NCBI GenBank assembly: GCA_945952415.1
Contig: CAMFIF010000010.1
Coordinates: 102,570-166,569, forward strand
Source of the DNA: an uncultured Rhizobium sp.
GTDB taxonomy: Bacteria; Pseudomonadota; Alphaproteobacteria; Rhizobiales; Rhizobiaceae
Length of the DNA stretch: 64,000 nt
Direction of reading: 5' to 3'
A model generated the notes under the pieces. That model was given only the letters and a program-made list of their open reading frames with translations. It did no database searches and had not been told where the DNA came from. The translations under genes were made by a program, and so were the position numbers. Shown here piece after piece: positions 10,259 through 48,562 of this stretch (positions are counted from its first letter, which is position 1; every line of letters begins with the position of its first letter).

Positions 10259-10282
10259 ATTAGGATTCGAGGCTTGCGTGAG
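10259..10282 (-). promoter_or_regulatory. Bipartite CTCACGCAAG-N9-CTAAT motif upstream of motA operon
   Basis: Reverse complement reads CTCACGCAAGcctcgaatcCTAAT; matches the motif upstream of flgB, fliH-like and flhA. Confidence 0.5.
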
Positions 10283-10335
10283 GCTGTTTGTCATGAGCCT
10301 GAAGGGTTGTCCGGGCCGGGCTCGCAAGGGCCAGT

Positions 10336-10358
10336 TTCGCGCAAGCATTATTCCGCAC
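10336..10358 (+). promoter_or_regulatory. TTCGCGCAAG element upstream of flgF (weak downstream half)
   Basis: TTCGCGCAAGcattattccGCAC. Confidence 0.35.
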
Positions 10359-19912: not shown

Positions 19913-20875
19913 ATGTCTAGCATCATGACCAATTCTTCGGCGCTTGCGGCACTGTCTACCCTGCGTTCGATCGACCAGAGCCTGGAATCCACCCAGGGCG
20001 CGATCTCCTCGGGCTACCGCGTCAACACCGCCAAGGACAATGCGGCTTACTGGTCGATCGCCACGACCATGCGTTCGGACAACAAGGCGCTCTCCACCGT
20101 TCAGGACGCGCTTGGCCTGGCTTCGGCCAAGACCGACACGGCCTATTCCGGCCTCGACACGGCGATCAACATCGTTTCCGAAATCAAGGCCAAGCTGGTT
20201 GCCGCCCGTGAGCCGGGCGTGGACCGCGACAAGGTCAACAAGGAACTGACCGAACTGAAGAACCAGCTGGTTTCGGTTTCCCAGTCGGCTTCCTTCTCCG
20301 GTGAAAACTGGCTCTACAACGACTCCTCGACCGCTGTCGGCACGAAGGAAATGGTTGGCTCCTTCACCCGCAACAGCTCCGGCTCCGTTTCGGTCCAGAC
20401 CGTTGACTTCGACGCCTCCAAGGCGGTTCTGGTCGACACCAAGGTCGGCAGCCGCGGCCTGCTCACCGTGGGCGTCACCGTCCAGCAGCCCTCGGGCACG
20501 ACGACCTCCACCCAGACCTACTATCTGGTGAACGTCTCCTCGGCGACCGCTGCGACCGGCACGGAAGTGAAGATCTCCTCGGCCACCACCGACGACCAGG
20601 TCGAAGGCATGATCATGGCCGTGGACGCCACGCTGAAGAGCATGACCGACACCGCCGCCACGCTGGGCGCCGTCAACAAGCGCATCGACACGCAGAACAA
20701 CTTCGTGAAGTCGCTCTCCGACGTGATCGACAAGGGCGTCTCGAAGCTGGTGGATGCCGACATGAACGAGGAATCGACCAAGCTGAAGGCGCTGCAGACG
20801 CAGCAGCAGCTGGGCATCCAGGCGCTGTCGATCGCCAACAGCAATTCCCAGAATATCCTCTCGCTGTTCCGTTAA
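19913..20875 (+). CDS. Flagellin (array copy 1)
   Basis: 320 aa; flagellin N-terminus MSSIMTNSSALAALSTLRSID and C-terminus SIANSNSQNILSLFR. Confidence 0.96.
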   Translation: MSSIMTNSSALAALSTLRSIDQSLESTQGAISSGYRVNTAKDNAAYWSIATTMRSDNKALSTVQDALGLASAKTDTAYSGLDTAINIVSEIKAKLVAAREPGVDRDKVNKELTELKNQLVSVSQSASFSGENWLYNDSSTAVGTKEMVGSFTRNSSGSVSVQTVDFDASKAVLVDTKVGSRGLLTVGVTVQQPSGTTTSTQTYYLVNVSSATAATGTEVKISSATTDDQVEGMIMAVDATLKSMTDTAATLGAVNKRIDTQNNFVKSLSDVIDKGVSKLVDADMNEESTKLKALQTQQQLGIQALSIANSNSQNILSLFR

Positions 20876-20905
20876 TCGGCAGCTTTCAGGATCTGAAACC
20901 CGAGG

Positions 20906-20932
20906 GGGCCGCGCCAAAAGCGCGGCCCTTTT
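20906..20932 (+). terminator. Rho-independent terminator after flagellin 1
   Basis: GGGCCGCGCCAAAAGCGCGGCCCTTTT. Confidence 0.8.
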
Positions 20933-21092
20933 CGCATGCGCGCCTTTTTCCGTTATAAATCAGTAGATTAAAAAATAAGAACAAAAAACATTAGAGATTT
21001 ACGTGTCATTAACCACGTTTGTTTAGAAAGTAGTCATACGGCAACGGACGGGCCAAACAGCAAGCGCCACAGCATGATGCACCCCGTTGCCC

Positions 21093-21145
21093 ACGGTATA
21101 GAGTCCGTAATGTCCCTGTTATTCATCATTTTAGCCAAAGGGGCA
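21093..21145 (+). promoter_or_regulatory. Flagellin 2 leader two-hairpin element
   Basis: ACGG 21093-21096 / CCGT 21105-21108 (compensatory variant); TGTCCCT 21111-21117 / AGGGGCA 21139-21145. Confidence 0.65.
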
Positions 21146-21151
21146 CTTATC

Positions 21152-22096
21152 ATGACGAGCATTTTGACCAACAACGCCGCCATCGCGGCGCTCGCTACTC
21201 TGCGCGGCATCAACTCCAACCTGGAAGACACCCAGAACCATGTCTCTTCCGGTCTGCGCATTGGTGAAGCGGCAGACAACGCCGCCTACTGGTCGATTGC
21301 GTCCACGATGAAGTCGGACAAGGGATCGCTGGATACCGTATCGGATGCACTGGGCCTCGCCACGGCCAAGGTCGATACGGCCTATAACGGCCTGAACCAG
21401 GTGAAAGACCTGCTGGCCGAAATCCGCAACAAGCTCACCCTCGCGCAGGAATCGGGCGTCGACCGCTCGAAGGTCTTCGATGAAATCACCCAGCTGAAGC
21501 AGCAGATCACCACGGTCGCCACCTCCTCCTCCTTCTCCGGGGAAAACTGGCTGAACAACACGGGCACCAACGCCATCGGCACGAAGGATATGGTCGGCTC
21601 CTTCACCCGTGACGGTTCGGGCAACGTCTCCCTGCAGATGATCTCCTTCGATGCCTCCGCATCCTGCCTTATCGACAAGAACACCGCCTCGCGTGGCATT
21701 CTCACCATGGCCAATACCGTCGGCACCAACAAATACCATCTTATCCTTGCAACCGGCGGCACCGCGCCGAACGGCTCCAATGAAATCACGCTCGCCAATG
21801 CCACATCCACCGCCATTATCGGTGAAATGATGCAGGCGGTCAGCACCATGTTCAACTCGGTGGTGAATGTGTCGGGCACGCTCGGTGCGTCCAAGGCGCG
21901 CATCGACAGCCAAGCGAACTTCGTCAAGACACTGTCGGAAACCATCGACAAAGGCGTGTCGAAGCTGGTCGATGCGGACATGAACGAGGAATCGACCCGG
22001 CTCAAGGCGCTGCAGACGCAGCAGCAGCTCGGCATCCAGTCCCTGTCCATCGCCAACAGCACGGCACAGAACCTCATGCAGCTCTTCCGGTCCTAA
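21152..22096 (+). CDS. Flagellin (array copy 2)
   Basis: MTSILTNNAAIAALATLRGINSN...SIANSTAQNLMQLFRS; start placed by alignment to the other copies. Confidence 0.95.
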   Translation: MTSILTNNAAIAALATLRGINSNLEDTQNHVSSGLRIGEAADNAAYWSIASTMKSDKGSLDTVSDALGLATAKVDTAYNGLNQVKDLLAEIRNKLTLAQESGVDRSKVFDEITQLKQQITTVATSSSFSGENWLNNTGTNAIGTKDMVGSFTRDGSGNVSLQMISFDASASCLIDKNTASRGILTMANTVGTNKYHLILATGGTAPNGSNEITLANATSTAIIGEMMQAVSTMFNSVVNVSGTLGASKARIDSQANFVKTLSETIDKGVSKLVDADMNEESTRLKALQTQQQLGIQSLSIANSTAQNLMQLFRS

Positions 22097-22140
22097 GGCT
22101 GGTTCCAAAGGTAGTGCGTTACAGCCAAGACTGAAGAAAC

Positions 22141-22172
22141 GGGGGCGGCAAAACCGCCCCCGAACTTTTTTA
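22141..22172 (+). terminator. Rho-independent terminator after flagellin 2
   Basis: GGGGGCGGCAAAACCGCCCCC followed by a T-run. Confidence 0.8.
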
Positions 22173-22292
22173 AAAAAGAAAATTAGAAAGCAAGAAACTG
22201 TTAAGATCCGAATGTTAGAAAATAATCACACAACGATGATTGGTGCCTACGGGGAAAACAAGCATCAACAGGCATGAAGCCGCCTTTCGTTG

Positions 22293-22345
22293 CCGGTATC
22301 AAATCCGGATGTCCCTTCCAATGTTTCGCGTATAGCCAAGGGGCA
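22293..22345 (+). promoter_or_regulatory. Flagellin 3 leader two-hairpin element
   Basis: CCGG 22293-22296 / CCGG 22305-22308; TGTCCCTT 22310-22317 / AAGGGGCA 22338-22345. Confidence 0.65.
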
Positions 22346-22351
22346 ATCATC

Positions 22352-23287
22352 ATGACCAGCATTATGACCAATTCTTCCGCACTGTCTGCACTCGCGACCC
22401 TGCGCACGATCGATACGAACATGGGCAACACCCAGAACCGTATCTCCACGGGTCTTCGCGTCGGCTCCGCTGCGGACAACGCGGCCTATTGGGCCATCGC
22501 CACCACCATGAAATCCGATGCCGCAGCACTCTCCACCGTCAACGACGCGCTGGGTCTCGGCCTGGCCAAGGTGGAAGCGGCCTATACCGGTCTCGATACC
22601 GTCAAGGACATTCTCACCCAGATCAAGAGCAAGCTGGTGACCGCCAACGAACCCGGCGCCGACCGCACCAAGATCAATGCGGAAATCACCCAGCTCAAGG
22701 AGCAGATCAAGACCACGGCGGCCTCCGCCGCCTTCTCCGGCGAAAACTGGCTTTACAACAACTCGACCACCGCCATGGCGACCTCGAAGGACATCGTCGG
22801 CTCCTTTACCCGCGACGCGTCCGGCAATGTAGCGATCCAGACGATTTCTTTTGCAACGGCTCAGTCGAATCTGATCGACGGTACCCAGGCGAACGGCATC
22901 CTGAGCCAGAAGCGCACCAACTCCGGCAACTTCTGGCTTGTCCAGTGCCCCGCCAACTCGAACGCTACCGGCAACGAAATCAAGGTGGATGCGAGCACCG
23001 CCGCAACCGACCTCGCCAACATGCAGACCTCGCTGGAAGCCATGCTCTCGGACGTGATCAAGGGTGCTTCGACGCTGGGTGCGATCAAGTCGCGCATCGA
23101 AAACCAGACGAACTTCTTGAAGGGTCTCAACGAAACCTTCCAGAAGGGTATCGGCAATCTGGTGGATGCCGACATGAACGAGGAATCGACCAAGCTGAAG
23201 GCGCTGCAAACGCAGCAGCAGCTGGGCATCCAGGCGCTCTCGATCGCCAACAGCAGCGCCCAGAACATCATGCAGCTCTTCCGCTAA
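22352..23287 (+). CDS. Flagellin (array copy 3)
   Basis: MTSIMTNSSALSALATLRTIDTNMGNTQNRIS...NIMQLFR. Confidence 0.95.
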   Translation: MTSIMTNSSALSALATLRTIDTNMGNTQNRISTGLRVGSAADNAAYWAIATTMKSDAAALSTVNDALGLGLAKVEAAYTGLDTVKDILTQIKSKLVTANEPGADRTKINAEITQLKEQIKTTAASAAFSGENWLYNNSTTAMATSKDIVGSFTRDASGNVAIQTISFATAQSNLIDGTQANGILSQKRTNSGNFWLVQCPANSNATGNEIKVDASTAATDLANMQTSLEAMLSDVIKGASTLGAIKSRIENQTNFLKGLNETFQKGIGNLVDADMNEESTKLKALQTQQQLGIQALSIANSSAQNIMQLFR

Positions 23288-23539
23288 GCGAAGCCGCTTT
23301 TTTTTGGATTTCGAAGGCCGCCGGGGCAACCCGGCGGCCTTCGTCGTTCTGTTTCCCCTTTCCGAGCGGGACAGCGCGCCTCTTCGCCCCGCCGCCGCCT
23401 TGCGCCAGGCTTGCCTTTGGTTAAAGAACAGTTAAATTATATCTTGAAGGATAAGTAAAACACGATAAAAGATTGGTCATGAAGCGGCAGCCGGACGACT
23501 GGATACCAGACCCGGCCGACATGATGTCATGAGCCGCCC

Positions 23540-23594
23540 CCGGTCCCTCCCGGAATGTCCCTATTTTACGAAAGCATAAGCCGAACAGGGGCGT
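23540..23594 (+). promoter_or_regulatory. Flagellin 4 leader two-hairpin element
   Basis: CCGG 23540-23543 / CCGG 23550-23553; ATGTCCCT 23555-23562 / AGGGGCGT 23587-23594. Confidence 0.6.
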
Positions 23595-23600
23595 ATTTTC

Positions 23601-24602
23601 ATGACCAGCATATTGACCAATGTGGCGGCACTCGGTGCATTGCAGACGCTCCGCACCATCGACCAGAACATGGAAGCCACCCAGGACCAGATTTCCTCGG
23701 GTTACCGCGTAAAGGATGCCTCGGAAAATGCGGCCTATTGGTCCATTTCATCCTCGATGAAATCCGACCAGAGTTCCATGGGCACCATCGTGGACGCGCT
23801 TGGCCTTGCCGCCGCCAAGACGGACACGACCTATGCCGGCCTCAACCAGACCATCGACCTTCTGAAGAAGATCAAGGACAAGATGGTGACGGCCAGCGAA
23901 CCGGGCGTGGACCGCGACAAGGTGGGCAATGAAATCGACCAGCTGAAGAAGCAGCTGGTCTCTGTCGGCATGTCCGCCTCCTTCTCCGGTGAGAACTGGC
24001 TCTACAACTCGACCACCGGCACGTTCCCGACGAAGAAGATGGTCGGAGCGCTCACCCGCAATGCCTCCGGCCAGATCGGCATCGAAACCATCGATTTCAA
24101 CGCCGCCAATTCCATTCTTCTCGACAAGGGCGATGCCCGCCGCGGCCTCCTGACCAACCGCAACACGATTGACGACACCGGGGATATCTTCAACTACTTC
24201 CTCGTGAACATCACCTCCCAGACGACAGCCAACCAGGGGGTAACGGCAGGCACGACCAACAACACCACCACCTATTCGGCGGCGGAAATCGTCGTCAGCA
24301 GCGCGGTGACCGACAAGCAGCTGTCCGCCATGCTGAAATCTGTCGACAATATCCTGAAGACGGTCACCAACGTGACCGCCGAACTCGGCGCCATCAAGGC
24401 CCGCGTCGATTCGCAGACCAACTTCGTGAAGGATCTCGTCTCGGTGATCGAGAAGGGGGTCGGCCAGCTGGTCGATGCCGACATGAACGAGGCCTCGACG
24501 AGGCTGAAGGCGCTCCAGACCCAGCAGCAGCTCGGTATCCAGTCGCTCTCGATCGCCAACACCAATGCATCGAACATCATGCAGCTCTTCCGCAACGGCT
24601 AA
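23601..24602 (+). CDS. Flagellin (array copy 4)
   Basis: 333 aa; MTSILTNVAALGALQTLRTIDQNM...NIMQLFRNG. Confidence 0.95.
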   Translation: MTSILTNVAALGALQTLRTIDQNMEATQDQISSGYRVKDASENAAYWSISSSMKSDQSSMGTIVDALGLAAAKTDTTYAGLNQTIDLLKKIKDKMVTASEPGVDRDKVGNEIDQLKKQLVSVGMSASFSGENWLYNSTTGTFPTKKMVGALTRNASGQIGIETIDFNAANSILLDKGDARRGLLTNRNTIDDTGDIFNYFLVNITSQTTANQGVTAGTTNNTTTYSAAEIVVSSAVTDKQLSAMLKSVDNILKTVTNVTAELGAIKARVDSQTNFVKDLVSVIEKGVGQLVDADMNEASTRLKALQTQQQLGIQSLSIANTNASNIMQLFRNG

Positions 24603-24684
24603 ACGCCGCCCCACCGCGCCAAGAGAATAGGCCGCCTCCACCGGGGCGGCCTTTGCGTTTCCTGCGCCGCTTCGGCTGTGTCAT

Positions 24685-24772
24685 CGTCATGATCGGGCTC
24701 GTCCCGAGCATCTGCCAAGCTATTGATCCTGTTCGACCTCGCAGAACCTCGGGACAAGCCCGAGGATGACGG
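24685..24772. repeat. Palindromic intergenic element (RIME/REP-like), copy A
   Basis: cgtcatgatCGGGCTCGTCCCGagcatctg ... cagaaCCTCGGGACAAGCCCGAGGatgacg: two hairpins in overall inverted arrangement. Confidence 0.65.
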
Positions 24773-24958
24773 AGTGTGGGATAAACGGGCGGCCTTCGGC
24801 GCGTGTGGCTCCATCCGCGAGCCTTGCCCAGAGCTTGCCTATGGTTAGTGGAACGTTAATTTATATCTTGATGGATAAGTAAACTTAGATACAAAGACAG
24901 GGAGCGGCAGCCGGAAGACGCACTATCCCCGGCGGACATGACGTTATATCGCCGCGCC

Positions 24959-25014
24959 CCGGTTCATCCGGAATGTCCCTTTTTCCAAAAAAAGAATGAG
25001 CCGAACAGGGGCGT
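24959..25014 (+). promoter_or_regulatory. Flagellin 5 leader two-hairpin element
   Basis: CCGG 24959-24962 / CCGG 24968-24971; ATGTCCCT 24973-24980 / AGGGGCGT 25007-25014. Confidence 0.6.
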
Positions 25015-25020
25015 ATTTTC

Positions 25021-26016
25021 ATGACCAGCATATTGACCAATGTAGCGGCGCTCGGCGCGCTGCAGACGCTTCGCACCATCGACCTGAACATGGAAAAGAC
25101 CCAGGACCAGATTTCCTCGGGCTATCGGGTCAAGGATGCCTCCGACAATGCAGCCTATTGGTCGATTGCGACGGGGATGAAGTCCGACCAGTCCTCCATG
25201 GGCACCGTGGTGGATGCGCTTGGCCTTGCCGCCGCCAAGACCGACACGGCCTATGCGGGTCTCAACCAGACCATCGACCTTCTGAAGAAGATCAAGGACA
25301 AGATGATCACCGCGAGCGAGCCCGGCGTCGACCGCGACAAGGTTGGCACCGAGATCGACCAGTTGAAGCAGCAGCTGATTTCCGTGAGCAAGTCGGCCGC
25401 TTTCTCCGGCGAAAACTGGATCTACAACACGGCGAGCGCCGCCATGCCGACCAAGAAGATGGTGGGCGCGCTCACCCGTTCTTCGTCGGGCCAGATCGGC
25501 ATCCAGACCATCGATTTCAATGCCGCCAATTCCGTACTCGTCGATCAGGATACGGCGGAACGGGGAATCCTCACCAAACGCTATGAATTCAACCCCACCG
25601 CGACCAGCACGGCCAGCTATTATCTGGTAGACGCCGGCTCCACCCACGCGGCAGGCAACGGCATCACCTTCAACAACAACACCTACACCGCGCCTGCGGA
25701 AATCACCGTCAATTCCACCGTCACCGACACGAAGCTCGCCCAGATGCTGACCACCGTGGACGGCATCCTGAAAAGCGTCGTGAACATCACGGCGGAGCTC
25801 GGCGCGATCAAGTCGCGCGTCGATTCGCAGACCAACTTCGTCAAGGACCTCGTCTCGGTGATCGAGAAGGGGGTCGGCCAGCTGGTCGATGCCGACATGA
25901 ACGAGGCCTCGACGAGGCTGAAGGCGCTCCAGACCCAGCAGCAGCTCGGTATCCAGTCGCTCTCGATCGCCAACACCAATGCATCGAACATCATGCAGCT
26001 CTTCCGCAACGGCTGA
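25021..26016 (+). CDS. Flagellin (array copy 5)
   Basis: 331 aa; near-identical N- and C-termini to copy 6. Confidence 0.95.
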   Translation: MTSILTNVAALGALQTLRTIDLNMEKTQDQISSGYRVKDASDNAAYWSIATGMKSDQSSMGTVVDALGLAAAKTDTAYAGLNQTIDLLKKIKDKMITASEPGVDRDKVGTEIDQLKQQLISVSKSAAFSGENWIYNTASAAMPTKKMVGALTRSSSGQIGIQTIDFNAANSVLVDQDTAERGILTKRYEFNPTATSTASYYLVDAGSTHAAGNGITFNNNTYTAPAEITVNSTVTDTKLAQMLTTVDGILKSVVNITAELGAIKSRVDSQTNFVKDLVSVIEKGVGQLVDADMNEASTRLKALQTQQQLGIQSLSIANTNASNIMQLFRNG

Positions 26017-26095
26017 TGCCGTCATGCTCCGCAGAGCAGAAAAGGCCGCCTCCACCGGGGCGGCCTTGCGTTTCCTGCGTCGCTTCGGCTGTTTC

Positions 26096-26184
26096 GTCGT
26101 CATGCTCGGGCTTGTCCCGAGCATCTGCCAAGCTGTTGATCCTTTTCAACGTAGCAGATCCTCGGGACAAGCCCGAGGATGACG
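26096..26184. repeat. Palindromic intergenic element (RIME/REP-like), copy B
   Basis: cgtcgtcatGCTCGGGCTTGTCCCGAGCatctgcc ... gcagatCCTCGGGACAAGCCCGAGGatgacg. Confidence 0.65.
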
Positions 26185-26404
26185 CGGAGTGAGGAGTCCC
26201 CCCGTGATGACGCGGGCACTGCCGCCACCGGGGCGGCCATTGTGGCTCCTGGCTCCCGTCGCGAGCCTTGCCCGAGGCTTATGTATGGTTAATGCATCGT
26301 TAATTTAATACTTGTTTGATAAGAGAAATAAGATAAAAGGAAAAGCATGAGGCGGCAGCCGGGGATGGAAGATGCCCGGCGGACATGAGGTCGCAAGCCG
26401 CGCC

Positions 26405-26460
26405 CCGGTTCATCCGGAATGTCCCTTTTTCCAAAAAAAGAATGAGCCGAACAGGGGCGT
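26405..26460 (+). promoter_or_regulatory. Flagellin 6 leader two-hairpin element (identical to flagellin 5 leader)
   Basis: Lies within the 298-bp block identical to 24951-25248 at +1446 offset. Confidence 0.6.
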
Positions 26461-26466
26461 ATTTTC

Positions 26467-27462
26467 ATGACCAGCATATTGACCAATGTAGCGGCGCTCG
26501 GCGCGCTGCAGACGCTTCGCACCATCGACCTGAACATGGAAAAGACCCAGGACCAGATTTCCTCGGGCTATCGGGTCAAGGATGCCTCCGACAATGCAGC
26601 CTATTGGTCGATTGCGACGGGGATGAAGTCCGACCAGTCCTCCATGGGCACCGTGGTGGATGCGCTTGGCCTTGCCGCCGCCAAGACCGACACGACCTAT
26701 GCCGGCCTCAACCAGACCATCGACCTTCTGAAGAAGATCAAGGACAAGCTGGTGACCGCGAGCGAGCCCGGCGTCGACCGCGCCAAGGTGGGCAATGAAA
26801 TCGAGCAGCTGAAGAAACAGCTGGTTTCCGTCAGCAAGTCGGCCGCTTTCTCCGGCGAAAACTGGATCTACAACACGGCGAGCACTGCCATGCCGACCAA
26901 GAAGATGGTGGGCGCGCTCACCCGTTCCTCGTCGGGCCAGATCGGCATCCAGACCATCGATTTCAACGCCGCCAATTCCGTGCTCATCGATCAGGATACG
27001 GCCGATCGGGGTCTGCTGACCCAATTCGTGCCCTTCAACCCCACCACGTCGACCACCGCGAACTGGTACCTGCTCAACGTCGGATCCACCAGTTCGGCCG
27101 GCAGCGGCACCACCTTCAGCAACAACAACAACACCGCCCCCACCGAGATCATCGTTGATGCCAGCGTGACGGATGTAAAGCTCGGCCAGATGCTGGCCGT
27201 GGTGGATACGATCCTGAAGAATGTCACCAACGTGACCGCCGAACTCGGCGCGATCAAGGCCCGTGTCGATTCGCAGACCAATTTCGTCAAGGACCTCGTC
27301 TCGGTGATCGAGAAGGGGGTCGGCCAGCTGGTCGATGCCGACATGAACGAGGCCTCGACGAGGCTGAAGGCGCTCCAGACCCAGCAGCAGCTCGGTATCC
27401 AGTCGCTCTCGATCGCCAACACCAATGCATCGAACATCATGCAGCTCTTCCGCAACGGCTGA
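26467..27462 (+). CDS. Flagellin (array copy 6)
   Basis: 331 aa flagellin. Confidence 0.95.
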   Translation: MTSILTNVAALGALQTLRTIDLNMEKTQDQISSGYRVKDASDNAAYWSIATGMKSDQSSMGTVVDALGLAAAKTDTTYAGLNQTIDLLKKIKDKLVTASEPGVDRAKVGNEIEQLKKQLVSVSKSAAFSGENWIYNTASTAMPTKKMVGALTRSSSGQIGIQTIDFNAANSVLIDQDTADRGLLTQFVPFNPTTSTTANWYLLNVGSTSSAGSGTTFSNNNNTAPTEIIVDASVTDVKLGQMLAVVDTILKNVTNVTAELGAIKARVDSQTNFVKDLVSVIEKGVGQLVDADMNEASTRLKALQTQQQLGIQSLSIANTNASNIMQLFRNG

Positions 27463-27490
27463 CGACGCATTTCAAAAACCCCGAATCTTG

Positions 27491-27527
27491 AAGGGCCGCT
27501 TCCCCGAAGCGGCCCTTAATTTTTTTT
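27491..27527 (+). terminator. Rho-independent terminator after flagellin 6
   Basis: AAGGGCCGCTTCCCCGAAGCGGCCCTTAATTTTTTTT. Confidence 0.8.
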
Positions 27528-27744
27528 CACTTTTAGATCTGCCCCGGGGAACATCCGTAAAATACATATATAAAACAAATGCTTCGTCAGATTTGCGCCC
27601 GGCAAGAAATTAACGAACATGGTTAAAAAGACGTTGGAGGGCTTAGACCTTTGTTAACCATAATCATGTCATCTACCAATCATTCGAACGGTGAATTAAT
27701 GAAAAAACCAAGCGAATTAATTGGCATGATGTCGCTCACCGTTG

Positions 27745-27795
27745 CCGGTACTTCAGTCCGGAATGTCCCTCGAAACTCCTATGCACCAAGGGGCA
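27745..27795 (+). promoter_or_regulatory. Flagellin 7 leader two-hairpin element
   Basis: CCGG 27745-27748 / CCGG 27758-27761; TGTCCCT 27764-27770 / AGGGGCA 27789-27795. Confidence 0.6.
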
Positions 27796-27801
27796 AATCC
27801 T

Positions 27802-28764
27802 ATGACAAGCATTCTCACCAACACCGCCGCAATGGCCGCTCTCCAGACCCTGCGTTCCATCGATCAGCAGATGGAAAACACCCAGAATCGAGTTTCTTCC
27901 GGGTATCGCGTCCAGACGGCGGCTGACAATGCGGCTTACTGGTCCATCGCGACCACCATGCGTTCGGACAACAAGGCGCTCTCCGCCGTCGAAGACGCGC
28001 TCGGCCTCGGTGCCGCCAAGACCGATACGGCCTACACGGCCATGAATTCCTCCATCAACGTCGTGATGGAAATCAAGGCAAAGCTGGTCGCCGCACGTGA
28101 ACCGGGCGTTGACAAGGACAAGATCAACAAGGAACTGACCGAGCTCAAGAACCAGCTGAACTCGATCGCCCAGTCCGCCTCCTTCTCCGGTGAAAACTGG
28201 ATGTACAACGACTCGACGGCCGCTGTCGGCACCAAGGAAATGGTCGGCTCCTTCGTCCGCAATGCCAATGGTACCGTTTCGATCCAGACCCTGGAATTCG
28301 ATGCCTCCAAGTCGATCCTGATCGACAGCAAGAACGCCAACCGCGGCCTGCTGACCGTCGGCGTCGTGGTCACGCAGCCCTCGGGCACCACCACCTCCAC
28401 CGCCACCTACTACCTGTTCAATGCTTCTTCGAGCACCGCCGCTTCCGGTACCGAAGTCCGCATCACCTCGACCACGACCGACGATAACCTCGAAGGCATG
28501 ATCATGGCCGTGGACACGATGCTGAAGAACATGACCGATGCCGCCGCAACGCTCGGTGCCGCCAACAGCCGCATCTCGCTGCAGAAGGACTTCGTCGTCA
28601 ACCTCACCGACGTGATCGACAAGGGCGTCGGCCGCCTCGTCGATGCGGACATGAACGAAGAATCGACCCGCCTGAAGGCCCTCCAGACGCAGCAGCAGCT
28701 GGGCATCCAGGCGCTCTCCATCGCAAACGGCAACGCCCAGAACCTGCTCACGCTCTTCCGTTAA
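27802..28764 (+). CDS. Flagellin (array copy 7)
   Basis: MTSILTNTAAMAALQTLRSIDQQMENTQNRVSSGYRV...NLLTLFR. Confidence 0.95.
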   Translation: MTSILTNTAAMAALQTLRSIDQQMENTQNRVSSGYRVQTAADNAAYWSIATTMRSDNKALSAVEDALGLGAAKTDTAYTAMNSSINVVMEIKAKLVAAREPGVDKDKINKELTELKNQLNSIAQSASFSGENWMYNDSTAAVGTKEMVGSFVRNANGTVSIQTLEFDASKSILIDSKNANRGLLTVGVVVTQPSGTTTSTATYYLFNASSSTAASGTEVRITSTTTDDNLEGMIMAVDTMLKNMTDAAATLGAANSRISLQKDFVVNLTDVIDKGVGRLVDADMNEESTRLKALQTQQQLGIQALSIANGNAQNLLTLFR

Positions 28765-28798
28765 TCGGCAGAGACCAGGCGCTGATCGCCATCTTCCG

Positions 28799-28828
28799 GG
28801 GCCCGCGTGGAAACACGCGGGCCCTTTT
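28799..28828 (+). terminator. Rho-independent terminator after flagellin 7
   Basis: GGGCCCGCGTGGAAACACGCGGGCCCTTTTG. Confidence 0.8.
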
Positions 28829-29063
28829 GCATGCGCGTGACGCCCGAAACGGCGGCAGGGTAGGGCGGGCGGCCCGCATCTCCGGGCCATCCGTCGTCCG
28901 CTCCGCTCCATTCGAAAGAAAGACGGCAATTTAAAACAATAATAAAAATTAACCATACTGTTTCAGTATTTTTTAACGTTAATAGTATTTACTGTAACTA
29001 TCAAACGGCGGATTAATCCAGTAGAGAGTTCAGGGTTAGTTTGCATGACGCTGGCTGCCGTTG

Positions 29064-29115
29064 CCGGTAAGTAAATCCGGTATGTCCCTTCCATTTATCT
29101 AGTCCAAAAGGGGCA
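29064..29115 (+). promoter_or_regulatory. Flagellin 8 leader two-hairpin element
   Basis: CCGG 29064-29067 / CCGG 29077-29080; TGTCCCTT 29083-29090 / AAGGGGCA 29108-29115. Confidence 0.65.
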
Positions 29116-29121
29116 GTACCA

Positions 29122-30084
29122 ATGACGAGTATCATGACCAATTCTGCAGCACTTGCAGCTCTTGCCACGCTGCGTTCGATCGACCAGAATCTGGAATCGA
29201 CCCAGAACCACGTTTCTTCCGGTTATCGCGTAGAAACGGCAAAGGACAATGCTGCTTACTGGTCGATCGCAACGACCATGCGTTCGGACAACAAGGCGCT
29301 TTCGGGCGTTGAAGACGCACTCGGCCTCGCAGCAGCGAAGACCGATACGGCCTATTCCGGTCTCGACACCTCCATCAGCGTCGTATCGCAGATCAAGGCC
29401 AAGCTGGTTGCCGCCCGCGAACCGGGCGTGGACCGCGACAAGATCAACAAGGAACTGACCGAACTGAAGAACCAGCTGGTATCCATTGCCCAGTCGGCCT
29501 CCTTCTCGGGTGAAAACTGGCTGTACAACGACAGCACCGCAGCTCCGACCACCAAGGAAATGGTTGGCTCCTTCACCCGCGGTTCGAACGGCAGCGTATC
29601 GATCCAGACGATCGATTACGATACGTCCAAGTCGGTTCTGATCGACACCAAGGTCGGCAGCCGTGGTCTTCTGACCGTCGGCGTCGTGGTTCAGCAGCCC
29701 TCGGGCACGACGACCTCCACCCAGACCTACTATCTGGTGAACGTCTCCTCGGCGACCGCTGCGACCGGCACGGAAGTGAAGATCTCCTCGGCCACCACCG
29801 ACGACCAGGTCGAAGGCATGATCATGGCCGTGGACGCCACGCTGAAGAGCATGACCGACACCGCCGCCACGCTGGGCGCCGTCAACAAGCGCATCGACAC
29901 GCAGAACAACTTCGTGAAGTCGCTCTCCGACGTGATCGACAAGGGCGTCTCGAAGCTGGTGGATGCCGACATGAACGAGGAATCGACCAAGCTGAAGGCG
30001 CTGCAGACGCAGCAGCAGCTGGGCATCCAGGCGCTGTCGATCGCCAACAGCAACGCTCAGAACATCCTCTCGCTGTTCCGTTAA
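29122..30084 (+). CDS. Flagellin (array copy 8)
   Basis: 320 aa; 3' part identical to copy 1 over 362 bp. Confidence 0.96.
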   Translation: MTSIMTNSAALAALATLRSIDQNLESTQNHVSSGYRVETAKDNAAYWSIATTMRSDNKALSGVEDALGLAAAKTDTAYSGLDTSISVVSQIKAKLVAAREPGVDRDKINKELTELKNQLVSIAQSASFSGENWLYNDSTAAPTTKEMVGSFTRGSNGSVSIQTIDYDTSKSVLIDTKVGSRGLLTVGVVVQQPSGTTTSTQTYYLVNVSSATAATGTEVKISSATTDDQVEGMIMAVDATLKSMTDTAATLGAVNKRIDTQNNFVKSLSDVIDKGVSKLVDADMNEESTKLKALQTQQQLGIQALSIANSNAQNILSLFR

Positions 30085-30113
30085 GACCAGCCGGATTACT
30101 GTCAGACAAGAGG

Positions 30114-30141
30114 AAAGGCCGCGCCAAAAGCGCGGCCTTTT
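30114..30141 (+). terminator. Rho-independent terminator after flagellin 8
   Basis: AAAGGCCGCGCCAAAAGCGCGGCCTTTTC; core shared with the flagellin 1 terminator. Confidence 0.8.
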
Positions 30142-30344
30142 CGCGTTTGGACTTTCCGCCACCCCCTTTCGCCGGGGAAGGCCAGATCTAGCCCTTTATT
30201 TTTTACGAATTTTTCAAACTGAATAATGATTTCTTAATTGCATTAACCTTTTGTTAACCATATAAATGATAACCATTCGTTAACAGAACGATGAGTTGGT
30301 CACCAGGGCAAAACGTGGCCACCTGCATGATGCTGATCATCGTT

Positions 30345-30392
30345 ACCGGTATCTCCTGACACTCCGGTATGTCCCGACATCACTATGGGGCA
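30345..30392 (+). promoter_or_regulatory. Flagellin 9 leader two-hairpin element
   Basis: ACCGG 30345-30349 / CCGGT 30364-30368; TGTCCC 30370-30375 / GGGGCA 30387-30392. Confidence 0.6.
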
Positions 30393-30398
30393 ATGACC

Positions 30399-31364
30399 AT
30401 GACAAGCATCCTGACCAATACCGCCGCCATGGCGGCTCTCCAGACCCTGCGCACCATCGACACCAACATGGAAACGGTTCAGAACCGCATTTCCTCGGGT
30501 TATCGTGTGGGCAGCGCCTCCGACAATGCCGCCTACTGGTCCATCGCGACGACCATGCGCTCTGACAATGAAGCGCTGTCCACCGTCAAGGATGCCCTCG
30601 GTCTCGGCGCGGCAAAGACCGATACCTATTATGCCGGTCTCGACTCCTCCGTGAAGGTCGTCACCGAAATCAAGGCGAAGCTCGTGGCTGCACGCGAGCC
30701 TGGCGTTGACAAGGACAAGATCAACAAGGAAATCACCGAGCTGAAGAACCAGCTCACCTCGATCGCCCAGTCCGCCTCCTTCTCCGGTGAAAACTGGCTC
30801 TTCAACGCCTCCACCACGGCGCTCGGCACGAAGCAGATCGTTGCCTCCTTCACCCGTTCGGCAAGCGGCACGGTGTCGGTGACCACGCTCGCCTTTGACA
30901 CGACCAAGTCGATCCTCATCGACACGTCCCAGGCGGCTCGCGGTCTGCTCACCAAGGGCAACACCATCACCCAGCCGAGCGGCACCACCACGGCCACCGC
31001 GACCTATTACCTCATCAATGCCAATGCCGCGACGGGCGTCACCGGCAGCGAGGTGAAGATCACCACCTCCACCAGCAACGACGATCTCGATGGCATGATC
31101 AGCGCCGTGGAAGTCGTGCTGCAGACGCTGACGGACTCCGCCGCCACGCTCGGCGCGATCAACAAGCGCATCGACATGCAGGATGAATTCGTTTCCACCC
31201 TGATGGACGTGATCGACAAGGGCGTGGGCCGCCTCGTCGATGCGGACATGAACGAGGAATCGACCCGGCTGAAGGCGCTCCAGACGCAGCAGCAGCTCGG
31301 CATCCAGTCGCTGTCCATCGCCAATACCAACGCGGCCAACATCATGCAGCTCTTCCGCCAGTAA
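30399..31364 (+). CDS. Flagellin (array copy 9)
   Basis: MTSILTNTAAMAALQTLRTIDTNM...NIMQLFRQ; ATG 30399 gives the SD spacing seen in the other copies (ATG 30393 also in frame). Confidence 0.95.
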   Translation: MTSILTNTAAMAALQTLRTIDTNMETVQNRISSGYRVGSASDNAAYWSIATTMRSDNEALSTVKDALGLGAAKTDTYYAGLDSSVKVVTEIKAKLVAAREPGVDKDKINKEITELKNQLTSIAQSASFSGENWLFNASTTALGTKQIVASFTRSASGTVSVTTLAFDTTKSILIDTSQAARGLLTKGNTITQPSGTTTATATYYLINANAATGVTGSEVKITTSTSNDDLDGMISAVEVVLQTLTDSAATLGAINKRIDMQDEFVSTLMDVIDKGVGRLVDADMNEESTRLKALQTQQQLGIQSLSIANTNAANIMQLFRQ

Positions 31365-35058: not shown

Positions 35059-36485
35059 TGGACGCCAAGCTTGCCGCATCATCGCCCAGTCCCGATTTAA
35101 ACATCCAGATCAAGCAGGGCGGCAAGGCTGAAAAGGCGACGTCCGGAGGTGAGCGCGGGGCCTTCCGCAGCGCGCTCGACGAACGTCTCGCATCGCGCGG
35201 CAATGCCGCACCGCGTCTCGATCTGCGGCCCACCGGGGACCAGGAAGAGGACACGCCGCAGGGCACGGCAGCCCAGCCGGATCGCGCCGCACGCACCGTT
35301 GCCCGCATTCCGGGCATTACCAAACCTCTGGGACTTGCCTCGTCCATCGCGCGCACGGCAACGCCCACCCTGCCGCTTCGCCCCGGGGACCACCCCGCAG
35401 TCGACGCGAAGTCGGCGAAGGACCCGAAAACCCGGACCGAACAGGCGAGCGGTAAGGTGCGCGAAACCACTGCCCATCACCGCAGCCGCGGCGAGGCCGA
35501 GGTCGCCGGGGTGAGCGATGGGGACGATGTGGAGGAAACCGGTCCGCTCGACACGTTCGAAAAGGCCCATGCGGTGCTCTTTGGCGGGGAAAAGGCCGCC
35601 GAAGATCCGGCCCTTGCCCCCGATGCCGACCGCACGGCCAAGGATGCGCTGGTTCTGCTGAAAGAAGCGGGGCCCGACAGGGCCGAGGGCCAGATGCAGG
35701 CCGCCGCCGCCACCGTGACCGCGACGACCGATTCGGCCGATGCGAGTGCACAAGGCGCGGAAGCCGATGGCCGGAGCGCCATATACCGGATTGCCCGTGC
35801 GGATGGTCGCGGTCAGATGTTCGAGATCGAAGGGCCGATCGTGCCAGAAGCCGGCGAAAAGAACGTACAGTCCAAGGCCGATTTCGGCGGCACGGTGCTG
35901 GTGGTCGACCAGCGGCGCTACCTGGCGCCGACCGCCACCAACCCGCTCTCCATCGCAAGCGCCATTGCCGGTGATCCCGAATGGACCCGCGCCCTGCAGC
36001 CGGAGCAGACGCTCGCCAACGCCGCGCTGCAGGCTGGCAATGGGCGGGTGGTGAACACGCTGAAGATCCAGCTCCATCCGATCGAACTCGGTCTCGTGAC
36101 GGCGACCCTGAAACTCACGGGCGATGAACTGTCCGTCGAGCTGAAGGTGGACAACGGCCTTGCCCTGCGCAGCCTGAAGGATGATCAGGCCAAGATCATC
36201 GAGGCGCTGAAAGCCCATGGTTTTGCCGTAGATCAGGTGAATGTGTCGATCGGCGCTGACCGTCCCGATTCGCAGGCGTCCAATCAGCAGAATGGACAGG
36301 CCAATTTCGCGCAGCAACAGCAGCAGGCAAGGGACGGCGGCCAGAATGCACCCATGTCCCGCGAGCGGGGCAGGTCTTATCAGGAAAGGAACGGCGATGG
36401 CAAAGCTGCGGCGGACGAGCTTCGGGTGGAAACCGGCAGTGTTGGCGGCACTGGCGGCTCTCGCCCTGGGCACGTCTATCTCTGA
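35055..36485 (+). CDS. fliK: Hook-length regulator FliK (historically MotD)
   Basis: Flg_hook-type C-terminus NTLKIQLHPIELGLVTATLKLTGDELSVELKVDNGLALRSLKDD. Confidence 0.88.
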   Translation: MMDAKLAASSPSPDLNIQIKQGGKAEKATSGGERGAFRSALDERLASRGNAAPRLDLRPTGDQEEDTPQGTAAQPDRAARTVARIPGITKPLGLASSIARTATPTLPLRPGDHPAVDAKSAKDPKTRTEQASGKVRETTAHHRSRGEAEVAGVSDGDDVEETGPLDTFEKAHAVLFGGEKAAEDPALAPDADRTAKDALVLLKEAGPDRAEGQMQAAAATVTATTDSADASAQGAEADGRSAIYRIARADGRGQMFEIEGPIVPEAGEKNVQSKADFGGTVLVVDQRRYLAPTATNPLSIASAIAGDPEWTRALQPEQTLANAALQAGNGRVVNTLKIQLHPIELGLVTATLKLTGDELSVELKVDNGLALRSLKDDQAKIIEALKAHGFAVDQVNVSIGADRPDSQASNQQNGQANFAQQQQQARDGGQNAPMSRERGRSYQERNGDGKAAADELRVETGSVGGTGGSRPGHVYL

Positions 36486-36987
36486 AGCCCAGGCGTCCAA
36501 CGGCGCCTGCGAACAGGAAATCCAGGCCGCGGCTGCCAAATACGGCATTCCAGAGGGCATTCTCTATTCGGTCGGTCTGACGGAAACCGGCCGGAAAGGG
36601 TCGTTGCATCCATTTGCGCTGAACGTCGAGGGCAAGGTCCTCTATCCGAGCAGCGAGAGGGAAGCCCTGTACGCTTTCCGTAAGGCGGAGGAAAGCGGGG
36701 CAAGGCTGATCGATCTGGGGTGCATGCAGATCAATCATTACTATCACGGCGAGCATTTTGCATCGGCGGCGCAAATGCTCGAACCTCGCCTAAACGTGGA
36801 ATACGCCGCAAGGTTCCTTAAAAATTTGCACGACAAACACGAAACCTGGACCATGGCGGTCGCCCGGTATCATGCTGGACCCAATAATGACCCGGCCCAG
36901 AAGCAGTATGTGTGCCGCGTGATCGCGAATCTCGTCGCCACCGGTTACGGCAACTGGACAGCCAATGCGCGGCAATTTTGCCAGTAG
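36397..36987 (+). CDS. Lytic transglycosylase (SLT domain), out-of-frame overlap with fliK
   Basis: ATG 36397; signal peptide; AAAKYGIPEGILYSVGLTETGR and CMQINHYYHG motifs. Confidence 0.85.
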   Translation: MAKLRRTSFGWKPAVLAALAALALGTSISEAQASNGACEQEIQAAAAKYGIPEGILYSVGLTETGRKGSLHPFALNVEGKVLYPSSEREALYAFRKAEESGARLIDLGCMQINHYYHGEHFASAAQMLEPRLNVEYAARFLKNLHDKHETWTMAVARYHAGPNNDPAQKQYVCRVIANLVATGYGNWTANARQFCQ

Positions 36988-37029
36988 ACAACACCTGAAG
37001 TTGTAATCGAGGCTTGCGCGAAACATGCG

Positions 37030-37051
37030 CCACATTCTGGCCAGAATGTGG
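37030..37051. promoter_or_regulatory. Perfect 22-bp palindrome upstream of rem
   Basis: CCACATTCTGGCCAGAATGTGG. Confidence 0.65.
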
Positions 37052-37268
37052 AGGCAGTTTTTGCGCAAGATAATTGTTACCCAACGGTTAATTTTCCACT
37101 GGAATTTAGTGGGTCATGGTTAACAAGCCCACTACATATAGCCCAAATCGGCACCCAAATCTTAATCAACTATTAATTCCAGCCATTAACTTCCATCAGT
37201 TGCTCAAGATTCGTCCGATTCGTACCTCTATGCATATCGAGGCACCACACTGATTCGGAGGCGGACGA

Positions 37269-37940
37269 ATGATCGTAGTGGTTGATGAGCGTGAGCTCGT
37301 GAAAGACGGATACACTTCTTTATTTGGTCGGGAGGGAATTCCCTCCACGGGGTTTGATCCCCGTGAATTCGGCGAGTGGGTCAACACCGCTGCCGATGGC
37401 GATATTGCGGCGGTTGAGGCCTTCCTGATTGGACAGGGCGAACGCATGTTCGAACTGCCGCGGGCCATCCGCGACCGGTCGATGGCACCCGTCATCGCGG
37501 TTTCGGACCAGCATTCGCTGGAAACCACGCTGGCCCTCTTCGACAGCGGCGTCGATGATGTGGTCCGCAAGCCGGTACATCCCCGGGAAATCATGGCCCG
37601 TGCGGCGGCCATCCGGCGGCGCCTGAAGGCGATCAGCAACTTCACCGACATTGGTCCCATCCGTGTCTTCTCCGACGGTCGCGATCCCGAGATCAACGGC
37701 GACGTCTTCCCGCTGCCGCGCCGCGAGCGCCGCATCCTGGAATATTTGGTCGCAAACCGCGGTCGTCGCGTGTCGAAGACCCAGATCTTCAATGCCATCT
37801 ACGGCATCTTCGACGACGAGGTCGAAGAGAACGTGGTCGAAAGCCACATCAGCAAGCTGCGCAAGAAGCTGCGCAAGAAGCTCGGTTTCGACCCGGTCGA
37901 TTCCAAGCGCTTCCTGGGCTACTGCATCGACTGGAGCTGA
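37269..37940 (+). CDS. rem: Motility transcriptional activator Rem (OmpR-like)
   Basis: 223 aa; degenerate receiver plus winged-helix DNA-binding domain; rhizobial position between fliK/transglycosylase and flgE. Confidence 0.93.
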
Positions 37941-37997: not shown

Positions 37998-38067
37998 CGT
38001 TTTGCCCGCCGCGCTGAGGCCGGCAACCTGTGATCGTCACCGAAAATAGGTGTCGGGACCCTACAGT

Positions 38068-38090
38068 TTCGCGCAAGCTCATAAATATAG
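38068..38090 (+). promoter_or_regulatory. TTCGCGCAAG-N9-ATAG motif upstream of flgE copy 1
   Basis: TTCGCGCAAGctcataaatATAG. Confidence 0.45.
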
Positions 38091-38121: not shown

Positions 38122-39411
38122 ATGAGCCTTACTGGAACCATGAATACTGCGGTGAGCGGCATGAATGCGCAATCCAGCCGCCTGAGCAGCATCAGCGACA
38201 ATATCGCCAATTCCGATACGATCGGCTACAAGCGTTCCAAGGTCAGCTTTTCCTCCTTCCTGCTGCCCAGCACCGGCGGTTCCTATGAATCGGGCAGTGT
38301 CGAATCGATCTTGGGCCGCGATGTCTCCGTGCAGGGCGAGCTCACCTCCAGCACCACTTCCTCCAACATCGCCATCAGCGGCGAAGGCTTCTTCGTGGTG
38401 CAGAGCATGCAGGGCCAGGAATTCCTAACCCGTGCGGGCGATTTCGAGATGGACAGCAATGGCGATCTCGTCAATTCCGCGGGCTTTGCGCTGCTCGGCT
38501 ATTCCTATGCCAAGGGCGTTCCGGCGAACCAGATCAACGGCCTCTCGGGCCTTGACCGCATCAACCTCAGGGACGAGCTCCCGCGCTCGGCGCCGACGAA
38601 GAATATCGGCTTCTCCTCGACGCTCGATGTGCGCAAGCCCCTGATCGACGCGACCGATCTGCCGCGCACCAACACGTCCACCGCCAAATATGATCACAAG
38701 ACCTCGGTGACTGCCTATGATTCCCTCGGCCGCGAGGTGCGCTACGATGTCTATTTCAGCAAGAAGAAGGAGGCCGCAGCCGGCCCTCCCGCCGTTGAAA
38801 TGGAATGGGACGTATCGATCTTTCGGGCGGACAAGGCCACCAATGGCGGTTTCCCTTATACGGGCGTGCCGACCAACAACAGCGCCACCTTCACCTTCGA
38901 CAGCCAGGGCAGTGTGACAAGCGCCGCGCCCAGCATCTCGATCACCGACAGCGTGACGGTACCGGCCCAGACCATCAAGTTCGATTTCTCCAAGCTCAAG
39001 GTCCAGGCAGCCGAGTTTACCCCCACGGAGAACAATGTGGATGGCCATGCCTCCTCCTGGGTTACCAAGGCCTCCATCGACAAGGACGGGATCGTCTATG
39101 CCGTCTATAGCGACGGCACCCGCGATCCACGCTTCCGCATCCCGCTTGCCAATGTCCAGAGCCCCGATCACCTGGAGGCGCTGAGCGGCAATGTCTTCCT
39201 GCCCACCCGCGAGTCCGGAACGACTTTTACCGGCTTTCCGGGGGAGGGGATCTTCGGCACCACCCTTTCCGGCAAGCTCGAGAAGTCCAATTCCGATCTC
39301 GCCTCCGAACTCACCGACATGATCCAGGCCCAGCGCAACTACACGGCCAATTCCAAGGCGTTCCAAACTGGTTCGGAGCTCATGGATGTGCTGATCAGCC
39401 TGAAACGATGA
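38122..39411 (+). CDS. flgE: Flagellar hook protein FlgE (copy 1)
   Basis: 429 aa; MSLTGTMNTAVSGMNAQSSRLSSISDNIANSDTIGYKRSKVSF...DMIQAQRNYTANSKAFQTGSELMDVLISLKR. Confidence 0.95.
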   Translation: MSLTGTMNTAVSGMNAQSSRLSSISDNIANSDTIGYKRSKVSFSSFLLPSTGGSYESGSVESILGRDVSVQGELTSSTTSSNIAISGEGFFVVQSMQGQEFLTRAGDFEMDSNGDLVNSAGFALLGYSYAKGVPANQINGLSGLDRINLRDELPRSAPTKNIGFSSTLDVRKPLIDATDLPRTNTSTAKYDHKTSVTAYDSLGREVRYDVYFSKKKEAAAGPPAVEMEWDVSIFRADKATNGGFPYTGVPTNNSATFTFDSQGSVTSAAPSISITDSVTVPAQTIKFDFSKLKVQAAEFTPTENNVDGHASSWVTKASIDKDGIVYAVYSDGTRDPRFRIPLANVQSPDHLEALSGNVFLPTRESGTTFTGFPGEGIFGTTLSGKLEKSNSDLASELTDMIQAQRNYTANSKAFQTGSELMDVLISLKR

Positions 39412-39671
39412 TTCACCATGAATGGAAACAGCAAGGCTGTTTCAACTGAATGATGTCCAACCGGGCCAATTTTCAACATGAGGTTTGAATAAATGCGCTC
39501 ATTTTTGACCACGCCGGAAACAGGGCGACAGGGACGGGGAAAAACCCGTTATCTACCTGAAATGCCTTGGCTTTCTGAAGGTGCCCTACGGTTTTCCGCA
39601 AGGGCTGTGGCGGGGTTGGATATATCAAATTTCATACATATTAGATCTAAATCACAGTTATATCATACAGC

Positions 39672-39694
39672 TTCACGCAAGGCCCGTCCCATAG
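39672..39694 (+). promoter_or_regulatory. TTCACGCAAG-N9-ATAG motif upstream of flgE copy 2
   Basis: TTCACGCAAGgcccgtcccATAG. Confidence 0.45.
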
Positions 39695-39726: not shown

Positions 39727-41022
39727 ATGAGCCTCTTTGGAACGATGAAGACAGCCGTTTCCGGCATGAATGCGCAGTCCAACCGGCTGGGCACCGTTGG
39801 CGACAATATCGCCAATGCGGACACGACGGCTTATAAGAAGGCATCGGTGCAGTTCTCTTCCCTGGTCCTGCCTTCGACTGCCGGCACCTATACCTCGGGC
39901 GGTATCAACTCGAATGTGCGCTACAGTGTATCCGAGCAGGGCAATCTGAAGTTTACCTCCTCCGCCTCCGATCTGGCGATCAACGGAAACGGCTTCTTCG
40001 TGGTGAACAACCCGGCGGGCACGCCCTTCCTGACTCGCGCCGGTTCCTTCGTGGTGGATGACAGCGGCAACCTGGTCAATGCGGCCGGTTACACGCTTCT
40101 GGGTTACTCCTTCGGTTCTGGCGCTCCGGCCGCGGTGGTGAACGGTTTTGACGGACTTGAGCCGATCAACCTCTCCTCCAACACGCTGACGGCAAAGGCC
40201 TCGAAGAACGGCACCTTTGCCGCGAACCTTGATGCCCGCAAGCCGGTCGTTCCGGCAGCAAATCTGCCGGGCGCCAATGCCGCCACAGCCACCTATTCGC
40301 ACAAGAGCTCACTGGTCGCCTATAATGCGGTCGGTAGCGAAGTGATCTATGACTTCTACTACACGAAAGTGTCGGATCCCGTGACCGGTCCCCCGGCCGT
40401 CGGCGCCAAGTGGCAGATCTCGGTCTACCGCAAGGACCAGGCCAGTGCCGGCACCGGCTTCCCCTATGCGGCTTCCCCCGTTGGCAACACGGTCACGCTT
40501 GAATTCGATGCCACCACCGGCAAGGTGACGGGTCCGACCAAGAGCATGTCCTTCACCGACAATGTCGGCGTGCCGCCGCAGACCATCAATATCGATTTCT
40601 CCGACATGACCCAGCTCGCCTACGACTTCACGTCGAACAAGGCGACGGTCGACGGCAACAAGGCGGCCGCGGTGAAGAGCGTTTCCATCGACAAGGACGG
40701 CACGGTTTACGCCGTCTATGACGACGGTTCCCGCGATCCCCGTTATCGCATCGCGCTCGCCACGGTGCAGAGCCCCGACAATCTCATCCTGCAGAACGGC
40801 AACGTCTACAGCCAGAGCGGTGACTCCGGCGTGGTTCGTACCGGTTTCCCGGGTGAGGGCAATTTTGGCCAGACCATCTCCGGCGCACTCGAGGACTCCA
40901 ATGTCGACATGGCATCGGAACTCACGGAAATGGTGCAGGCACAGCGCAGCTACACGGCCAACTCCAAGGTCTTCCAGACCGGGGCTGACCTGATGGACGT
41001 GCTGATCAACCTCAAGAGATAA
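39727..41022 (+). CDS. flgE: Flagellar hook protein FlgE (copy 2)
   Basis: 431 aa; MSLFGTMKTAVSGMNAQSNRLGTVGDNIANADTTAYKKASVQF...MVQAQRSYTANSKVFQTGADLMDVLINLKR. Confidence 0.95.
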   Translation: MSLFGTMKTAVSGMNAQSNRLGTVGDNIANADTTAYKKASVQFSSLVLPSTAGTYTSGGINSNVRYSVSEQGNLKFTSSASDLAINGNGFFVVNNPAGTPFLTRAGSFVVDDSGNLVNAAGYTLLGYSFGSGAPAAVVNGFDGLEPINLSSNTLTAKASKNGTFAANLDARKPVVPAANLPGANAATATYSHKSSLVAYNAVGSEVIYDFYYTKVSDPVTGPPAVGAKWQISVYRKDQASAGTGFPYAASPVGNTVTLEFDATTGKVTGPTKSMSFTDNVGVPPQTINIDFSDMTQLAYDFTSNKATVDGNKAAAVKSVSIDKDGTVYAVYDDGSRDPRYRIALATVQSPDNLILQNGNVYSQSGDSGVVRTGFPGEGNFGQTISGALEDSNVDMASELTEMVQAQRSYTANSKVFQTGADLMDVLINLKR

Positions 41023-48145: not shown

Positions 48146-48562
48146 ATGCCGCCGATCACCCGTTCGGAAAAACTGAAGCGCCTCGTCGCCGTGCAGCGGC
48201 ATCTCGAAAAGATCGCCGAAAGCGATCTTGCCGCCACCACGCGCCAGCGCCAGGAAGTCAACCAGACCATGGATGTGGTGATGGAAGCCATCGGCTCGCT
48301 GAGCGACGTGCACCGCATGTTCGCCCAGAATTATGCCGGCCGCTTCAGCCGCCTTTCGGTGCAGGATGCCCAGCTTGCCGGCATGCAGAACCTGCATGAG
48401 CGCCGCGTTCTGAAGGAGCGCACCAAGGCCGAGCGGCTCGAAGAACACATGGTCGATGCACGCGATGCCGAGCAGCGCGAAACCGACGACAATGCCATTT
48501 ACGACCTGATCGACATGAGCGTTGCGGCCACGACAGCCTCCAGCAAGGTTCAAAAGACATAG
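48146..48562 (+). CDS. Small coiled-coil flagellar protein, possible FliJ-like
   Basis: SD AGGAGGC; 138 aa alpha-helical charged protein following fliR. Confidence 0.55.
   Translation: MPPITRSEKLKRLVAVQRHLEKIAESDLAATTRQRQEVNQTMDVVMEAIGSLSDVHRMFAQNYAGRFSRLSVQDAQLAGMQNLHERRVLKERTKAERLEEHMVDARDAEQRETDDNAIYDLIDMSVAATTASSKVQKT

Follow-up and report, generated by a model that had tools for sequence, protein, structure and literature searches.

Comparative analysis indicates that a perfect palindrome upstream of rem, in the 64,000-nucleotide stretch of rhizobial DNA analysed here (the window), is the local form of an ancestral Rhizobiaceae element kept before rem in many rhizobia. The account that we favour, with roughly even confidence, is that the palindrome is an operator, common to rem and ntrY, through which a dimeric regulator adjusts rem. 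NtrX would be the leading candidate for its reader, and VisNR would act at a separate, promoter-proximal repeat.

The palindrome, CCACATTCTGGCCAGAATGTGG, spans 22 bp (37030-37051) and is flanked by CTTGCGC (37013-37019) and GCGCAAG (37063-37069). A re-reading of the sequence confirms the palindrome and both flanks at the coordinates given in the initial annotation. The palindrome begins 42 bp past the stop codon of an SLT transglycosylase gene, in a 281-bp gap that extends from this stop (36987) to the start of rem (37269). The features discussed below are as follows.

595-1341, plus strand: visN, with a GerE/LuxR domain and orthologues
1352-2098, plus strand: visR, with a GerE/LuxR domain and orthologues; start codon provisional
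36403-36987, plus strand: SLT transglycosylase gene (Pfam SLT, 32.6 bits, and direct reading); start codon provisional
37013-37024, minus strand: left flank CTTGCGCGAAAC, read on the minus strand as GTTTCGCGCAAG; a match, confined to this genus, to the Rem-class motif of flagellar promoters
37030-37051, no strand: perfect 22-bp palindrome, the form that the family-wide dyad CRCAWTGTGGCRRSAATGYG takes in Gellertiella (direct reading, dyad scan, covariation and spacing)
37065-37069, plus strand: GCAAG, within the right flank and kept family-wide at about -204 relative to the start of rem; not Rem-class
37096-37112, no strand: inverted repeat CCACT-N7-AGTGG (family form CCAC-N9-GTG), candidate VisNR operator (conserved dyad and spacing)
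37132-37137, plus strand: CTACAT, probable -10 of the rem core promoter, of the alphaproteobacterial CTATAT type (conserved box)
37162-37176, no strand: TTAA-N7-TTAA, CtrA-box-like, positioned about -106 to -109 in the majority of 82 loci
37269-37940, plus strand: rem, an OmpR-type response regulator (Pfam Trans_reg_C; orthologues)

No other perfect palindrome of at least 18 bp is present in the window. In a first-order Markov simulation, 6 of 100 windows carried a palindrome of at least 22 bp, and the chance of finding one inside a 281-bp intergenic stretch is therefore far lower. A genome-wide search recovered a single copy of CCACATTCTGGCCAGAATGTGG, which rules out a dispersed palindromic repeat. 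Together with its flanks the palindrome forms an imperfect inverted repeat of 57 nucleotides, with a predicted fold of -32.5 kcal/mol (z -6.1). Conservation is a stronger argument than these rarity statistics that the palindrome is real.

Searches for rem orthologues group the window with Gellertiella hungarica and related metagenome-assembled genomes. Sequences of the 300 bp preceding rem were aligned for 84 loci, and in 51 representatives with less than 88% identity we scanned all possible dyad centres in this last 300 bp. The best-conserved centre is 37040.5, which is the centre of the palindrome. Thus the palindrome, which the initial annotation had proposed to look for upstream of rem in close relatives, is present there in degenerate form and at a fixed position. 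Its consensus outside Gellertiella is CRCAWTGTGGCRRSAATGYG, as exemplified in Sinorhizobium by CCGCATTGTGGCGACAATGCGG. All 22 bp are perfect in the window only; the inner 20 bp, CACATTCTGGCCAGAATGTG, are kept in G. hungarica, and the other three congeners lack parts of the right half. The half-site type would be CGCATT, and it may be in this Gellertiella lineage that the ancestral dyad acquired perfect symmetry. Several genera, and one congener (G003), have only a degenerate dyad or none.

With Gellertiella left out, pairing across the dyad in 23 distinct sequences is 73.4%, compared with 67.9 +/- 1.5 after shuffling (0 of 500 shuffles as high). Two-sided changes number 13 where 6.5 are expected, and the covariation score is 0.218, compared with 0.134 for shuffles and at most 0.129 for slid controls. 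A less selected and milder test on 47 sequences gave 270 paired cells against 251 +/- 8, with 41 of 5000 shuffles as high; the shuffles in both the 23- and the 47-sequence tests ignore relatedness. Within Gellertiella the long stem gave neither an excess of pairing over shuffles nor a signal of compensation. Counted from TGGC of the dyad, the -10-like box is 94-98 bp away in each of the 64 loci measured, and 95 or 96 bp away in 57 of them. This fixed position and spacing across relatives upholds the earlier view of a cis-element linked with the promoter of rem.

The strongest conserved blocks before rem lie downstream of the palindrome: GTTAAYTTTTCCAC, next CTAnATnTAGnnCAAATC, and next TTAA-N7-TTAA. 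All 82 loci carry a CTAnATnTAG-type box at -136 to -139 from the gene, and we take its CTAnAT portion to resemble the CTATAT -10 of Sinorhizobium promoters. From the box at 37132-37137, transcription of rem is predicted to start near 37144, placing the palindrome centre near -104. The likely rem core promoter is about 90 bp downstream of the palindrome. Regarding the CtrA-box-like sequence, CtrA control of rem in S. meliloti is unsupported by ChIP or depletion (PMC4433202).

VisNR activates rem in rhizobia (PMC8429497). The repeat CCAC-N9-GTG is present in 58 of 82 loci, is among the higher centres in the scan of 51 representatives, and has its centre 28 bp before the -10-like box in 55 loci and 27 bp before it in three. 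Its centre in the window, 37104, corresponds to about -40, the position of a class II activator. Of 15 genomes with a VisN score above 150 bits, 14 have the -10-like box, as against none of 15 others; this comparison is confounded by phylogeny. We consider CCAC-N9-GTGG at 37096-37112 a better candidate than the palindrome for the VisNR operator, from which VisNR would activate rem near -40. At the corresponding promoter region of S. meliloti VisNR is the activator and MucR also binds, and the dyad is present in Sinorhizobium; MucR, however, binds AT-rich DNA without a consensus (PMC8429497, PMC10572780). The text of the S. meliloti start-site paper does not mention rem. A TGTTGCYGCGAATCG-like stretch is conserved upstream of visN in Gellertiella (L119-L123). 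A further visNR pair is found in congener G003 on another contig (G003:C27:31516-33016), with protein 100% identical to that of the window; it possibly reflects contamination of that assembly.

The flanks had been proposed as half-sites for Rem autoregulation. Flagellar promoters of the flgE type in relatives have GACAGCTTCACGCAAGGCC in common, which we label the Rem-class motif because Rem controls such genes; binding by Rem is putative. The left flank matches the flgE-promoter matrix on the minus strand (37007-37028) with 13.0 bits, against a 99% null of 7.6. It is kept in all five Gellertiella genomes, and CTTGCGCGA is invariant in four congeners. The match is confined to this genus and is reversed relative to the flgE-type motif, and neither the palindrome nor the right flank matches the flgE-type matrix. 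GCGCAAG is not kept in the genus as an inverted partner of CTTGCGC, and 72 of 82 rem loci have [GA]CAAG between -203 and -210. Other matches to GACAGCTTCACGCAAGGCC in the window are at 39666-39687, 38062-38083, 10330-10351 and 48532-48553 on the plus strand and 10267-10288 on the minus strand, and include a divergent pair between motA-like and flgF-like genes. Two tandem flgE-like hook genes downstream of rem (38122-39411 and 39727-41022) each have their own flgE-type promoter motif, and nine tandem flagellin-like genes occupy 19913-31364.

A second occurrence of the dyad is found between ntrC and ntrY. Pattern searches of two Sinorhizobium genomes, one Rhizobium genome and the window's genome returned rem-type sites, the ntrC-ntrY intergenic region and scattered coding matches. 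The other near matches examined genome-wide are in coding frames, with the exception of ntrY and one intergenic site (L139). The ntrC-ntrY gap contains a 28-bp element, CGTTGCATTTTCGCCACAATGCGTTGCTT, that does not vary among four genomes from three genera, although the flanks differ. Its copies, in Gellertiella, Sinorhizobium and Rhizobium, are at L134 1490-1520 (G000:C19:57993-58016), L142, L147 and L148. Of 41 relatives, 16 have related forms of the ntrY element, including some without a clear VisNR.

In S. medicae the rem form, CGCATTGTGGCGACAATGCG, and the ntrY form, CGCATTGTGGCGAAAATGCA, are identical at 18 of 20 core positions, and in Sinorhizobium genome-wide models of the two sites match reciprocally. 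The best match to a matrix derived from 13 ntrY elements is the rem dyad in 25 of 51 upstream sequences, where about three are expected. A 24-bp model built from these 13 elements only ranks the rem dyad second-best genome-wide in S. medicae (E 0.35) and S. terangae (E 0.38). Conversely, a model of rem dyads without Gellertiella recovers the ntrY element in five of six genomes, including the window's (E 0.54-0.85); its other matches that were opened lie inside open reading frames. With cross-match E-values of 0.35-0.85, the argument rests on the positions of the matches. The window's palindrome itself resembles the ntrY matrix weakly (2.3 bits, p 0.155) and is not among the listed matches of the 24-bp ntrY model in its own genome, so what ties it to ntrY is its positional homology to the Sinorhizobium dyad. 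The recurrence at ntrY and the reciprocal matches in Sinorhizobium make an operator common to rem and ntrY the most likely interpretation, and one regulator reading both sites would be the likeliest mechanism. Such a regulator, presumably a dimer binding DNA, would read the dyad of about 20 bp, whose centre lies roughly 104 bp before the predicted start of rem transcription, and would adjust rem, and hence flagella, from this upstream site.

NtrX is the leading candidate for this regulator. Phosphorylated NtrX of S. meliloti binds a probe from ntrY that contains CAACACCGTTG and CAATGCGTTG; NtrX also binds the promoter of visN, and motility is affected when ntrX is mutated (PMC9223101). The two probe sequences are the two ends of the ntrC-ntrY element in its S. 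medicae form. Whereas the ntrY form has TTG flanks and CAATGCGTTG, the rem form is without CAAN2-5TTG, the published NtrX motif, and is reversed in orientation; the Gellertiella rem form is in addition a diverged perfect palindrome. Direct reading of 37030-37051 likewise finds no CAAN2-5TTG, and we have therefore not filed the palindrome as an NtrX site. Nor is this motif what is conserved at ntrY in several genera. The ntrC-ntrY element of several relatives carries CACATTGCGTTG, which breaks the reported form CAAN3-5TTG. Taken alone, the reading of the palindrome by NtrX seems to us plausible but somewhat short of even probability, and the regulator of the Sinorhizobium dyad may also read the Gellertiella version. 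A broader proposal, that a single NtrX-read operator is common to rem and ntrY across the Rhizobiaceae, that the true NtrX recognition element in this family is the dyad YGCATTNNNGCCACAWT rather than CAAN2-5TTG, and that NtrYX feeds directly into rem besides acting, as is known, on visN, is more tentative still.

The initial annotation had instead assigned the palindrome to VisNR, with TTTGCGCAAG as the -35 region in a class I geometry. The dyad is of a size that suits a LuxR-type dimer, its presumed reader would be a known activator of rem, and the tested genomes that bear the dyad possess visNR. Among the genomes tested the rem dyad is found only in VisNR-positive ones, yet it has been lost in several of these (for example G003, G016 and G017), and phylogeny confounds this association. 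The same motif also stands at ntrY in genomes without a clear VisNR, such as G019, G020 and G023, and no comparable dyad was observed by eye upstream of visN in 14 genomes. A promoter at TTTGCGCAAG finds no support: nothing conserved, and no -10, follows 17 bp on, and some 65 bp more separate it from the conserved -10-like box. The palindrome would accordingly sit near -104, and the repeat at -40 is the better fit. VisNR is thus an unlikely reader of the palindrome, whether as its main operator or as a second, upstream site. The box core RCRTTNNGNCG (PMC5506826) suggests another regulator, of the redox-responsive ActR/RegR (PrrA) type, as direct reading shows that GCATTGTGGCG in the Sinorhizobium and ntrY forms fits it. 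The full RegR box is matched only in part, though, the Gellertiella and Shinella forms break the match, and the literature searched contained no link from ActR/RegR to rem. We regard this as a weaker alternative to NtrX, and as improbable.

An RNA hairpin that terminates the fliK-transglycosylase transcript or stabilises its 3' end would account for the strong fold of the 57-nucleotide repeat and its location shortly past a stop codon, with GCAGTTTTTG after the stem in both the window and G. hungarica, and conservation of pairing cannot by itself separate RNA from DNA. However, a terminator scan did not call the palindrome, and the T-run in the window starts about 7 nucleotides past the 22-bp stem rather than immediately after it, as expected of an intrinsic terminator. 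No T-run directly follows the dyad in Sinorhizobium or Rhizobium, so that termination of the transglycosylase gene, which had been named as the alternative to an operator, finds no support across the family. Further arguments against RNA are the fixed spacing from the dyad to the rem promoter, the absence of any Rfam family at the palindrome, and the long stem of the genus, with pairing no higher than in shuffles. In addition, relative to transcription the motif points in opposite directions at rem and at ntrY, an arrangement more easily reconciled with a dyad in DNA than with a hairpin in RNA. We judge the hairpin a little less probable than a VisNR site. Least probable is a palindrome without function, produced by chance or drift in unconstrained sequence. 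Its perfection is limited to one lineage, and palindromes of this length do arise in 6% of simulated windows, but the dyad is conserved family-wide at the same position with fixed spacing.

These results distinguish two candidate points of control at the head of the flagellar cascade in rhizobia: the promoter-proximal repeat, which tracks VisNR, and the dyad further upstream, whose motif recurs at ntrY. If NtrX reads the common dyad, the motility defect of ntrX mutants would gain a direct route through rem.
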